NCBI GenBank assembly: GCA_944383825.1
Contig: CALWRA010000001.1
Location: forward strand, 1-64,000
Length of the DNA stretch: 64,000 nt
Source of the DNA: an uncultured Acetatifactor sp.
Lineage (GTDB): Bacteria > Bacillota > Clostridia > Lachnospirales > Lachnospiraceae
Direction of reading: 5' to 3'
Both the position numbers and the translations under genes were made by a program. Each line of letters begins with the position of its first letter. Position 1 is the stretch's first letter. Positions 20,378 to 57,001 of this stretch are shown here, piece after piece. The notes beneath the pieces were generated by a model. That model was not told the DNA's origin. It did no database searches and saw nothing but the letters and a program-made list of their open reading frames with translations.

Positions 20378-20760
20378 TCCCTACCCCGCTTTCTTTTTCT
20401 GCCCTCTATACTTAACCGTTGTTTTTCCTCTTCCCAATCAAAAGAAGTACACGCAATACAGCGCTTGCATTGCTCTATAGGCTCGTCGTCAAACTCTTTA
20501 CTAAATCCCATGCAAGCCCCGTTTCCGTCCCTGCCTGCTACTCCTATTTTCTTTTGTAAGCTGCATTTTTCTATACGCCTGCTTATGCGGCAGCTTTTAC
20601 AAATAATCTTTTTACCCGTTGTGCAGCCCTCTTGACGTGCAAAGTACGCCGCCCATTCCCTGCTTACACCGCCCGATCTGTCAGCGCTTAAAAAAGCTAC
20701 TATCTGCTCGCCGCATATATCGCAATATACCTTTGTGCGTACTTCCCTAAATATTGCCAT
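20374..20760 (-). CDS. Zinc-finger-like protein downstream of methyltransferase
   Basis: 128 residues from the ATG at 20760, which overlaps the methyltransferase stop; the longer frame upstream lies inside the methylase gene. It has paired CxxC motifs (VYCDICGEQ, CKSC, CKRCIAC), suggesting zinc ribbons. Role unknown. Confidence 0.65.
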   Translation of the reverse strand: MAIFREVRTKVYCDICGEQIVAFLSADRSGGVSREWAAYFARQEGCTTGKKIICKSCRISRRIEKCSLQKKIGVAGRDGNGACMGFSKEFDDEPIEQCKRCIACTSFDWEEEKQRLSIEGRKRKRGRE

Positions 20761-21742
20761 TGTCTGCCTCGCTTTCCGCTGTCTCTCCCAGTAATATTTT
20801 TCTAAATATGCTTTCAAATATTGGTACTGGGATACTATTACCCGCCTGCTTGTAAAGCGGCATTGTATACCGTCCTACCCGATCATGCACCGCCGCAGCC
20901 GCCTTGTAGTCCTCGTCCGTATAGCCCTGTAAGCGCCAGCACTCTAACTCTGTTAGATACCTATAGCGTCCGTTTCCCATATCCACTACTTGTGCCGGTG
21001 TTCTGTCCTGCCTTGCAGTGATTGTAAAAGCGTAATCCTCTATTACCGTTGCCCGCCTTATTCCCTTTTTGCCGATCGCCTCTAATACGCTTGGCTGTGT
21101 TACGTCATATACTGGCGGTGCGTCTGGTAACAAAAAATCTTTTATATCCCTCATTGGTGTTTTTATCAGATCGTCAAATCTGAATTTTTCGCCATTTAAA
21201 ACAGATACCGTGAATACCCTTTCTCTCGCCTGCGGTAAACCAAATTCCCTAGCGTCCAATATCTCAAAATTGCTGCAATAACCCAGCCTATCCATTTCCG
21301 ATATATATTTATTGAAATTCACACGCATATAGCGGCTTAAGACGTTCTTTACATTCTCCCAGATAACGTATTTTGGTTTCCATTCTCCCATTTGCTCTAT
21401 TATGTGAATTGTTTCCCACATAAGGCTGCTGCGTGTTCCGCTCCCCTTGCCTGCCCCTTTTCCACGGTTTATGCGTCCGTCCTCTGCTTTTGCTTTCCCT
21501 TGATGTCCGGCAATGCTAAAATCTTGGCACGGGCTACCATGTATCAGAATATCCGGCTTCAAATTCCAGCCTACAACGCTCTGCGTCTTATATGGCAAAT
21601 CGTCCGAAAACATTGCATTATAGGAACGTACCGCCTTTTCGTCTATCTCTACGTAATCAATCGCTTTTACAGGTATTCCTATATTGCGTAGAGCGCAGCG
21701 TGGGCTACCTATCCCGCCGAATAACTCTAAAATCTGCACCAC
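20747..21742 (-). CDS. DNA (cytosine-5)-methyltransferase
   Basis: 331 residues with C5-MTase motifs: I ELFGGIGSPRCA, IV HGSPCQDFS (catalytic Cys), VI VIWENVKN, VIII QARERVFTV and X LYKQAGNSIPVP. No restriction partner is next to it, so it is probably an orphan methylase that shields phage DNA. It appears intact, unlike the prophage B enzyme. Confidence 0.95.
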   Translation of the reverse strand: MVQILELFGGIGSPRCALRNIGIPVKAIDYVEIDEKAVRSYNAMFSDDLPYKTQSVVGWNLKPDILIHGSPCQDFSIAGHQGKAKAEDGRINRGKGAGKGSGTRSSLMWETIHIIEQMGEWKPKYVIWENVKNVLSRYMRVNFNKYISEMDRLGYCSNFEILDAREFGLPQARERVFTVSVLNGEKFRFDDLIKTPMRDIKDFLLPDAPPVYDVTQPSVLEAIGKKGIRRATVIEDYAFTITARQDRTPAQVVDMGNGRYRYLTELECWRLQGYTDEDYKAAAAVHDRVGRYTMPLYKQAGNSIPVPIFESIFRKILLGETAESEADNGNI

Positions 21743-53663: not shown

Positions 53664-54143
53664 CTACCTTGTAGCTTCTACAATGGCGTTGTATAGGTCT
53701 GCCGTCCTCTCCCCGGCTTCCAGGCGTTCTTTCAATGGTAAAAGCACGGGGTAAATGATTTTTCCAAAATATCCGCCAGGTGTATATTTTGATAACATAT
53801 CTTTTATGGCATCTTCCGCCGCTTCCCAATTCCTTAATGCTTCCGGCTCTTCCCCTATCACAAGCCCGTCCATTTCCTCTTCAATATGTTTTGCCAACTT
53901 CTCCGCCGCCTGGTTGGCGCATACACGGGCGATAAATCCGGCATTAAAAAGAAACTCGCATACGTTAAAAGCCAGTTCCCCCGGTTGGATGCTTCCGGCG
54001 GTTTCTTCCCGTCCTGCTCCCGGCTCTGCTTCCTCTCCTGCCGCCGCTTCTGGTGCTGCTGCCTTGGCTGTCCCTTTTACGTCCGGCTCGTCTCCCGGCT
54101 CTTCCGTCTTATTCATCCCGGTAAATTCTTTGTTCTCTTCCAT
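53664..54143 (-). CDS. Hypothetical acidic protein
   Basis: 159 residues from the ATG at 54143, preceded by GAAAGCGAGGAAC. The frame stays open upstream into the methyltransferase C-terminal part, but the ribosome site marks the true start. Acidic Ala/Glu linker then a helical domain with three Cys. No family recognised. Confidence 0.6.
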   Translation of the reverse strand: MEENKEFTGMNKTEEPGDEPDVKGTAKAAAPEAAAGEEAEPGAGREETAGSIQPGELAFNVCEFLFNAGFIARVCANQAAEKLAKHIEEEMDGLVIGEEPEALRNWEAAEDAIKDMLSKYTPGGYFGKIIYPVLLPLKERLEAGERTADLYNAIVEATR

Positions 54144-54495
54144 GTTCAGTTCCTCGCTTTCCTCTGTCGCATAAATGCTTTTTGCTATCTCTTCCGCTAT
54201 TGCGGTAAAAACCGTTGTCGTTACGGCGTTCCCAAATTGTTTATAGGCTTGGCTGTCTGATACCACTTGTTTCCAATCGTCCATAGGAAACGCTTGCAAA
54301 ATGCCGTATTCTTTCGGCGTTAATCTCCGTACCCGTAGGCGCTTTGTATCAAATATCTTCACTTCTCTCTGCCCCCCCCGGATGTTGTAAGGGTTGGGGC
54401 TATCCCGTCCACGGAATACACCCGGCGGCATTGTTCTTTCCCTTTTATGTCAAGCATCCCCACCATTTTGCAGCCCTGGTTATCTGCTCTTCCCA
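54144..54495 (-). pseudogene. C5-methyltransferase, C-terminal part (frame broken at G8)
   Basis: A frame from an ATG at 54495 reads MGRADNQGCKMVGMLDIKGK, then YSVDGIAPTLTTSGG, and stops just after a G8 run. The next phase continues VKIFDTKRLRVRRLTPKEYG and motif X YKQFGNAVTTTV. One extra G would join them. It completes the target-recognition and motif IX-X part missing from the upstream gene. Confidence 0.7.
54372..54379 (-). repeat. Poly-G tract (G8) in methyltransferase
   Basis: Eight G on the coding (minus) strand at the frame switch between the GIAPTLTTS and VKIFDTK segments. Slipped-strand mispairing to G9 would restore the frame. Confidence 0.75.
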
Positions 54496-54722
54496 TTGTC
54501 TTGTTCCTTTCGCTCTTCAATTACCGCTATCATGTCTTTCTTTCCTGTATACCCCTTATAGTCCCTGGCGGTAAGGCATGGGGAAATGTCCGTAATCCTT
54601 AAAACATTCCTTCCGCATTGGTTTACCGCTACCGTAACCGGGAAATCTATTTCCTGCTGCCCGGATTGATTAAAATATATTGGTAATTGTGTTTCTTCGT
54701 TAGGCTTCCGCCCCCCCCCCAA
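54480..54722 (-). pseudogene. C5-methyltransferase, middle part
   Basis: The frame reads RKPNEETQLPIYFNQSGQQE then RITDISPCLTARDYKGYTGK, a typical target-recognition segment, ending DNGKSR. It is out of phase with the N-terminal gene because of the G10 tract at its start. Its 3' end overlaps the ATG of the C-terminal part. Confidence 0.7.
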
Positions 54723-55701
54723 CTCTAAGCGTCTTTCCGCATCCGTTTGGGTCTAATAGGCCTGTTTCCTCTGAAATATCCGCAATAACGCTTTCTTCCG
54801 TCTGCCCGTCCTCTAAGACAATAACGCCGTGTATATCCTGGGCGGTAAGCGTAAACATTGGTTCTTCCTCTGCCTTTGCCCGTGGTCCGTTCTGTCTTTT
54901 GTTGATGCGGTCCGGCGTGATGCACGCATGACATTTTCCCATTTTCTCTAATTTCTCCATTGCCTGGGTTATAATCGTCTGTGCCTTTTCGTCCGGCAGA
55001 TAATACTTTTCCGGCACATCCTTTTCCAGATAGTCGGAAAGTTTCGGGACAAGTTCGTGCTGCTCTTCCGGGAATGTAAATTGTATTCCTTTTTTATTTC
55101 TGGTCCCCACCACGGCGTAACGGTCCCTGTTCTGCGGTACTCCCCAATATTTTGAATTGAACCGCTCTATATGCGCCGTGTAGCCGTGGCGTTCATATTC
55201 CAGGCAAAGCACTGGCAGATACAGCCGTAACCCTCGCACATTCTCCGCAATGATAACGGCCGGCATGGCATCCGCCCTTTCCCGTTCCGTTTCTTCCAGT
55301 AGGCGCATGATTTCAAAAAAGCATCCGCTGCGGCTTGCCGCCTTGAAGTCTGTGCATCCGCATCCAGGGCATACCGTGTTCCCTGTGTATTCTTCCGGCT
55401 TTATCTCTATTTCCTTGCCGCAATCCTCACATTTTAAAACCATTCCCTTTTGCTTCCCGGCAACACTCAAATCCTGGCAAGGGAAACCAAACGCCCATAC
55501 ATCCGCTTTTGGTATATCTGCCTGGTGCAAGTCTTTTATATCTGCTTCCTGCACATGATCCCCGACATTCTCCCGGTAGGTTTCCACGGCGTATTTATCA
55601 AAATCCCATGCCCCGGCTATCTCATACCCGGCGTTTTTAAAAGCTATCCCCATGCCGCCGCATCCGCAAAAAAAATCATTTACTTTTAATGTCCGCTTCA
55701 T
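54700..55701 (-). CDS. DNA (cytosine-5)-methyltransferase, N-terminal part
   Basis: 333 residues with motif I DFFCGCGGMGIAFKNAG, catalytic motif IV AFGFPCQDLS, an inserted zinc ribbon (CEDCGKEIE...CPGCGC), motif VI AENVRGL and VIII QNRDRYAVVG. Motifs IX-X are missing because the frame shifts at G10. As read it should be inactive. Confidence 0.88.
   Translation of the reverse strand: MKRTLKVNDFFCGCGGMGIAFKNAGYEIAGAWDFDKYAVETYRENVGDHVQEADIKDLHQADIPKADVWAFGFPCQDLSVAGKQKGMVLKCEDCGKEIEIKPEEYTGNTVCPGCGCTDFKAASRSGCFFEIMRLLEETERERADAMPAVIIAENVRGLRLYLPVLCLEYERHGYTAHIERFNSKYWGVPQNRDRYAVVGTRNKKGIQFTFPEEQHELVPKLSDYLEKDVPEKYYLPDEKAQTIITQAMEKLEKMGKCHACITPDRINKRQNGPRAKAEEEPMFTLTAQDIHGVIVLEDGQTEESVIADISEETGLLDPNGCGKTLRVGGGAEA
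54711..54720 (-). repeat. Poly-G tract (G10) in methyltransferase
   Basis: Ten G on the coding strand. With G9 the N-terminal gene (...KTLRV) would continue into the middle part; with G10 it ends GGGAEA. Confidence 0.8.
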
Positions 55702-56212: not shown

Positions 56213-57001
56213 CTAAAATTTCATTTGATACTCTCTTGAATAGTTAAACCATACCGTTTCTATTCTCTTTAGTCCGTGTTCTGCTTGGGTCTGCTTTTGA
56301 GCTTTATTCCACCCGTTCAGGATTTCATTGTAAATGGCATTGTCATATCCGCTTATGAGAATTTTTCCCGGATGTTCCTGTATCGCTTCTAAAAGTTCTA
56401 TATGGTCTTTTTCCGTCATTTCGATATTGTACAGATAACCCTTTCTTGTTCCTGGTAAATACGGTGGGTCTAGGTATATAAATACGTCCGGCGTATCATA
56501 CCGCTTCAACAATTCCAATGCCGGAAGTTTTTCTATTTGTGCGTGTTTCAATCGCTCCGCCGCCAATAAGACCCGGTCCGGCAATTCACTCCAGTGCTTT
56601 GTTGTTTTTGGACTATTTCCTTGTTGGCTTGAACGGAACCCGTTTTTATAAACGTTACTGCTTCCCATACCCAACCAACAACGCACCATAAATTTTCTTG
56701 CCCGTTCCAACTCTGTTTCAGCTGAAACTTCTTTATAGGCGTTTTCGTATTCCTCACGGCTATACGGCGTCATTTCAAGTGCTTTTGCAAATTCTTCCGG
56801 ACGGTTCCTTATCACTTTGAAAAGGTTATAAACTTCTCCGTCCAAATCGTTTATTGTTTCTATTTTTGCCGGGTCTTTATTAAAAAACACCGCCCCACTT
56901 CCAAAGAATAATTCCAGGTAAACCCTGTGTTCCGGAATGAAAGAAATTATCCATTCTGCCAGGCGGTTTTTTGCCCCCGGATATTTTAATAACGTTTCCA
57001 T
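56213..57001 (-). CDS. DNA N6-adenine methyltransferase (Dam/D12 class)
   Basis: 262 residues. SAM-binding KYPGAKNRLAEWI and LELFFGSGAVFF, catalytic DPPY in YLDPPYLPGTRK. D12-class orphan methylase, probably GATC-type by family, protecting DNA from restriction. Intact. Confidence 0.95.
   Translation of the reverse strand: METLLKYPGAKNRLAEWIISFIPEHRVYLELFFGSGAVFFNKDPAKIETINDLDGEVYNLFKVIRNRPEEFAKALEMTPYSREEYENAYKEVSAETELERARKFMVRCWLGMGSSNVYKNGFRSSQQGNSPKTTKHWSELPDRVLLAAERLKHAQIEKLPALELLKRYDTPDVFIYLDPPYLPGTRKGYLYNIEMTEKDHIELLEAIQEHPGKILISGYDNAIYNEILNGWNKAQKQTQAEHGLKRIETVWFNYSREYQMKF

Follow-up and report, generated by a model that had tools for sequence, protein, structure and literature searches.

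We asked why a cytosine-5 DNA methyltransferase gene, carried by a prophage of an uncultured Acetatifactor sp., loses its reading frame twice, each time at a long run of G. In the window (the whole stretch of DNA that was analysed, 64,000 nucleotides) the enzyme is found in pieces on the minus strand of the prophage, in ORFs 54700-55701, 54480-54722 and 53664-54431. The only G or C runs of at least 8 in the window are C10 (54711-54720) and C8 (54372-54379) of the plus strand, which are G on the coding strand. The features discussed below, all on the minus strand, are as follows.

29930-58217 (approximate bounds), minus strand: prophage carrying the locus, with tail, tape measure, major head, portal, terminase, ParA/ParB-like, Rep and DNA-binding genes
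56213-57001, minus strand: adjoining D12-class adenine methyltransferase, intact and tract-free
54700-55701, minus strand: alpha gene as assembled, 333 aa, with motifs I-VIII and the first recognition segment, ending in AEA and a stop directly past tract 1
54711-54720, minus strand: tract 1 (T1), G10 at the 'KTLRVGG' position, a conserved position with G7-G12 in relatives
54480-54710, minus strand: frame Y past tract 1, RKPNEETQ...ITDISPCLTARDYKGYTGKKDMIAVIEERKEQDNGKSR and a stop, an additional recognition module under purifying selection
Past tract 1, minus strand: frame X, GGSLTKKHNYQYILINPGSRK and a stop, overlapping the first part of frame Y
54505-54510, minus strand: AAAGGA, likely ribosome-binding site of beta, 8 nt ahead of its ATG
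54380-54496, minus strand: first part of the beta gene, from the ATG at 54494-54496, MGRADNQGCKMVGMLDIKGKEQCRRVYSVDGIAPTLTTS, with an equivalent start in at least 12 loci
54372-54379, minus strand: second tract (T3), G8, separating the recognition module of beta from motif IX, out of frame as assembled
53664-54371, minus strand: second part of the beta gene, motifs IX-X (PF00145, 1.3e-11, profile positions 263-323 of 324), then a phage domain of unknown function in the same frame

Alpha is matched by Pfam PF00145 (2.3e-42), by NCBIfam dcm TIGR00675 (1e-38, above the cut-off) and by M.HhaI of the PDB (5e-20), and has the motifs of C5 methyltransferases: FFCGCGG (motif I), FPCQDLS (motif IV), AENVRG (ENV) and PQNRDR (motif VIII). 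Motifs IX and X (RRLTPKEYGILQAFP and QFGNAV) are found in beta, on the far side of the tract. Among the neighbouring genes that were scanned, we saw no restriction gene. The window holds two prophages side by side (5821-29000 and 29930-58217), each with terminase, portal and major head genes of its own, and the first of them has a C5 methyltransferase of its own (20747-21742) without long G runs. This other methyltransferase was ruled out as a copy of the split enzyme, with 26% identity in the N-terminal part only.

As can be seen from the translations, the frame switches exactly at G10 and at G8, as an earlier note on this DNA had read it; alpha ends with KTLRVGGGAEA and a stop, and beta with PTLTTSGGGREK and a stop. 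The same note proposed that G9 at both tracts restores the reading. This holds for the second tract, where G9 leads on to motif IX, and in part for tract 1, where it restores one of the two open frames; a different length class of tract 1 opens the other (GGSLTKKHNYQ...). The organism's own genome (2.74 Mb) has 11 separate tracts of at least 8 G, so that two of them in one 1.56-kb gene are beyond chance (Poisson, ~2e-5); a shuffle control gives 3.5 runs expected in the window, but ignores the strong genome-wide depletion of such runs. Long homopolymers inside a reading frame, here G10 and G8, are what is expected of a contingency locus. Elsewhere in the host genome, outside the window (L089, G000:C11:51500-55500), a membrane acyltransferase-like gene is frame-split exactly at a G9 (C11:53566-53574) and is a second candidate phase-variable gene.

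We then compared 16 loci, the window included. The relatives were taken from viral contigs, from genomes and from the record of Roseburia phage Shimadzu, and were found by similarity to the window protein; their number is modest and the wider family was surveyed unevenly. Searches of the family, order and class gave few relatives, so the methyltransferase family is rare among the genomes searched; three further pattern matches (L049, L052 and L054) were unrelated. At least one G7-G12 run lies in the methyltransferase gene at 15 of the 16 loci. Over all 16, runs of at least 7 number 36 in 25.0 kb of methyltransferase versus 4 in 146 kb of flank (binomial, 4e-26). We observed them directly at three recurring places: T0 in motif I, T1 after KTLRVGG and T3 between PTLTTS and motif IX, with the following lengths.

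T0: L063 G7, out of frame; L064 and L066 G8, in frame
T1: window 10, L028 12, L001 8, L002 9, L003 7, L014 8, L045 8, L063 7, L064 8, L066 8, L030 7
T3: window 8, L028 9, L001 10, L002 8, L003 6, L004 9, L014 8, L045 10, L063 8, L061 8, L060 7, L083 8, L029 6, L105 9

At T3, six copies are in frame (L028, L004, L002, L061, L029 and L105) and eight are out of frame (window, L001, L003, L014, L045, L063, L060 and L083), which is not far from the one third in frame expected from random phase. L061 keeps the frame at both of its tracts and shows that the complete state of the enzyme exists; in its relative L060 each tract is one G shorter, and the frame is lost at both. The frame is broken at some point in most of the assembled copies, and a gene that is expendable or switched off most of the time would give the same picture. 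Homologues with the same breaks and no G tracts, named in the earlier note as evidence against phase variation, were not found: in the broken homologues, tracts stand at these very positions and differ in length and phase. L105 (G184:C2) is a methyltransferase remnant that lacks motifs I-VIII and has kept recognition modules, G9 and motifs IX-X; it could be a degraded copy or a reservoir of modules. A small phage gene upstream of the methyltransferase (M-L/F-x-NLFSKK...) has a G run at the same place in two loci (G9 at L002:343, G11 at L014:1195), is in frame in both, and is possibly another slippery gene.

Long homopolymers are the commonest assembly error. The lengths given here were read from assemblies, and some are perhaps miscounted, for example G12 in L028, an older draft. 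The breaks could thus be sequencing or assembly errors, the gene being an ordinary and intact one whose glycine codons are rich in G, as runs of 8 G or more are prone to error, GGG is the commonest Gly codon in the carrier phage (37%), and the Gly residues encoded by the tracts are partly conserved in tractless relatives. However, long G runs are found at the same two positions down to ~60% protein identity and in different sequencing projects, and are nearly absent from flanking genes, while tract-free relatives use mixed codons for the corresponding glycines, with the frame unbroken there. Error could account for single lengths but not for the existence of the runs, and we consider it an improbable explanation.

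The lengths also differ between very close relatives. L001, L002 and L003, counted as contigs and not as independent lineages, are 97-99% identical (27-66 mismatches over about 2.65 kb). Their short indels ahead of motif IX are all at G runs, tract 1 being 8, 9 and 7 and the tract before motif IX 10, 8 and 6, respectively; apart from these there are a 149-bp module, one indel of 24 bp in the tail, which keeps the frame, and differences of 1-3 bp where the contigs end. Tract length thus varies among close relatives more than the rest of the gene, as in contingency loci, and this supports the earlier proposal of a candidate phase-variable phage gene, in which the tracts would switch the frame. 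The 149-bp recognition module (L002:3672-3832) is bounded by G8 runs and is absent from L001 and L003; modules may be gained and lost through the short homology that the G runs offer.

Slippage on homopolymers also happens in transcription. It is conceivable, therefore, that the G runs are sites of programmed frameshifting, by ribosomal or transcriptional slippage, which would give both products from one DNA sequence and leave the DNA unswitched. Consistent with this, frames X and Y past tract 1 both look coding, and the frame upstream of the tract often leads straight to a stop. A programmed site, however, would hold one length and one frame relation, whereas the lengths seen here range from 6 to 12, and even contigs that are 97-99% identical differ in phase. 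We regard programmed frameshifting as unlikely, and quite so.

We noted that alpha and beta are separate genes even apart from the tracts. Frame Y stops at 54480-54482, and the overlapping ATG of beta (54494-54496) opens MGRADNQGCKMVGMLDIKG... Equivalent starts, most of them preceded by an A/G-rich site, are found in L028, L004, L001, L014, L029, L045, L060, L061, L063 and L064, and the start is likewise present in L002, L003 and L062. The recurrence of this start in relatives and the AAAGGA ahead of it indicate that the enzyme is encoded by two genes. Alpha is motifs I-VIII with recognition modules, and beta, with its own start, is a recognition module with motifs IX-X; each has its own tract. 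The overlapping stop and ATG near 54490, which the earlier note took for a further interruption, do exist, but they mark a conserved boundary between genes, which has a likely ribosome-binding site of its own, and are not a defect. On the question of whether the homologues are one gene or two, we directly observed mostly the two-gene layout; in L083 alpha and beta are still in one frame as far as the tract, and the more distant relatives L008, L010 and L011 are single, tract-free ORFs. The split enzyme M.AquI similarly has a larger subunit with motifs I-VIII and a smaller one with motifs IX-X (PMC3404938). The likeness lies in the two genes, the second having its own start and holding motifs IX-X; phase-variable tracts, in contrast, are not described in PMC3404938, and the assembly of alpha with beta would follow by analogy to M.AquI.

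If the breaks were old, the code beyond them should have decayed. Beyond T3, pN was 0.148 and pS 0.531 for the window versus L001, and 0.135 and 0.771 for the window versus L014, all copies being out of frame. Similar values were obtained for the N-terminus of alpha (window versus L001; pN 0.128, pS 0.549) and for the Y module past T1 (window versus L028; pN 0.072, pS 0.568); in distant pairs pS is saturated, so that their dN/dS ratios are unreliable, but the contrast of pN and pS is still reliable. The code downstream of out-of-frame runs is under purifying selection. This is evidence against decay over a long time, and it implies that the correct frame is often translated. A decaying pseudogene in a defective prophage might be suspected from the two frame breaks of the assembled copy and from at least one break in most relatives. 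Yet past the breaks pN is much below pS even when both of the compared copies are out of frame, other disabling changes are absent, and the head, tail, terminase and replication ORFs of the carrier prophage are intact. Moreover, an infectious phage is in the same state: orf41/orf42 of Roseburia phage Shimadzu (LR596903.1) carries G8 and G10 where the window has its two tracts. Shimadzu is a functional temperate phage that infects and evolves in mice (PMC6563222). It is a direct relative with the common two-gene layout, annotated as two methyltransferase genes; it differs in having 60% protein identity, and its annotation does not mention phase variation. We looked for a second assembly of the Shimadzu prophage and found none. 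Decay is strongly disfavoured by these observations, and we give it hardly any weight.

We analysed the frames that follow tract 1. Read in frame X, the sequence encodes a conserved GGSLTKKHNYQHVL segment with a stop close behind it, and in frame Y it leads into another module. The third frame usually meets a stop after 1-14 residues. Where a relative has everything in one frame, its X segment runs on into the next module. Between motifs VIII and IX the relatives have a varying number of ...P-T-L-T-A-x-D-x-x-G... modules (in looser form, repeats of P-T-L-T-x-x-D/G), and one whole module is present in L002 and absent from L001. As X and Y are both open, slippage at T1 may change the recognition segment of alpha as well as turn it on or off, and specificity could change in this way. 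It is even possible, though we think it rather doubtful, that the locus is a combinatorial specificity switch, where the junction tracts would choose the end of alpha (segment X, module Y or none), the beta tract would act as on/off, and exchange of modules at G runs would give many specificities per lineage. AlphaFold2 models of a tractless single-ORF relative (five sequences) had a mean pLDDT of 49, gave no clear fold for the recognition region and were left out of the interpretation.

The earlier reading had missed the two-gene enzyme, the position of the tracts at junctions of recognition modules, and the recurrence of the family in phages of Clostridia. We are fairly confident that the locus encodes a prophage two-subunit cytosine-5 DNA methyltransferase that is phase-variable by slipped-strand mispairing at poly-G. 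Alpha would supply the SAM-binding and catalytic motifs I-VIII and at least one target-recognition segment, and beta, made from its own overlapping start, the recognition module and motifs IX-X, as in M.AquI. The tract of beta, directly ahead of motif IX, would set whether motifs IX-X are produced, i.e. turn the enzyme on or off. The tract of alpha lies immediately ahead of a recognition module or slightly within it, and would set whether alpha is cut short, ends in the conserved GS-TKKHNYQ segment or gains a further module. In some relatives the third tract, within motif I, would be a plain on/off switch. We infer slippage as the mechanism, as we do alpha-beta assembly, methylation and a protective role. 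As the runs differ in length between near-identical phages, the phage population probably switches the enzyme at random, and perhaps the marked DNA sites too. Individual phages of one population would then differ in methylation state, most simply as a hedge between host restriction systems whose target is DNA lacking methylation and systems whose target is methylated DNA.

Phase variation by simple repeats is well known in bacterial pathogens. Poly-G phase-variable methyltransferases have been described for Campylobacter type IIG (PMC4889913) and Helicobacter type III (PMC12003011) enzymes and in the Campylobacter phasome (PMC6321876). In these, as here, the length of a coding G tract sets the frame of the methyltransferase (G7-G13 in Campylobacter), but they are bacterial genes, mostly of restriction-modification systems, whereas here a two-gene C5 enzyme of a phage has several tracts at recognition-module junctions. 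Methyltransferases of phages usually shield phage DNA from restriction (reviewed in PMC12707154). The C5 methyltransferases of Bacillus temperate phages are multispecific, with several recognition domains per polypeptide (Trautner et al. 1996, cited in PMC12707154). As far as they are presented there, they resemble the present enzyme as phage C5 methyltransferases with several modules (those of the present enzyme being putative ones), thought to protect against many restriction systems, and no description of poly-G phase variation or of a gene split was found in that account; here the number and kind of modules vary among near-identical phages. A phage-encoded poly-G phase-variable methyltransferase was not found in the literature searched, which is weak evidence of absence as subscription papers were mostly outside the search. 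What is new is to find these features together: a split C5 enzyme, encoded by a phage, with several tracts and with modules that vary; poly-G phase-variable methyltransferases as such were already known.

If our reading is true, gut phages of Clostridia randomly diversify their own DNA modification against unpredictable host restriction. Annotation pipelines would have recorded such enzymes as broken or separate genes, as with Shimadzu. Shimadzu in Roseburia intestinalis L1-82 is a cultured phage-host pair, which makes the reading directly testable.
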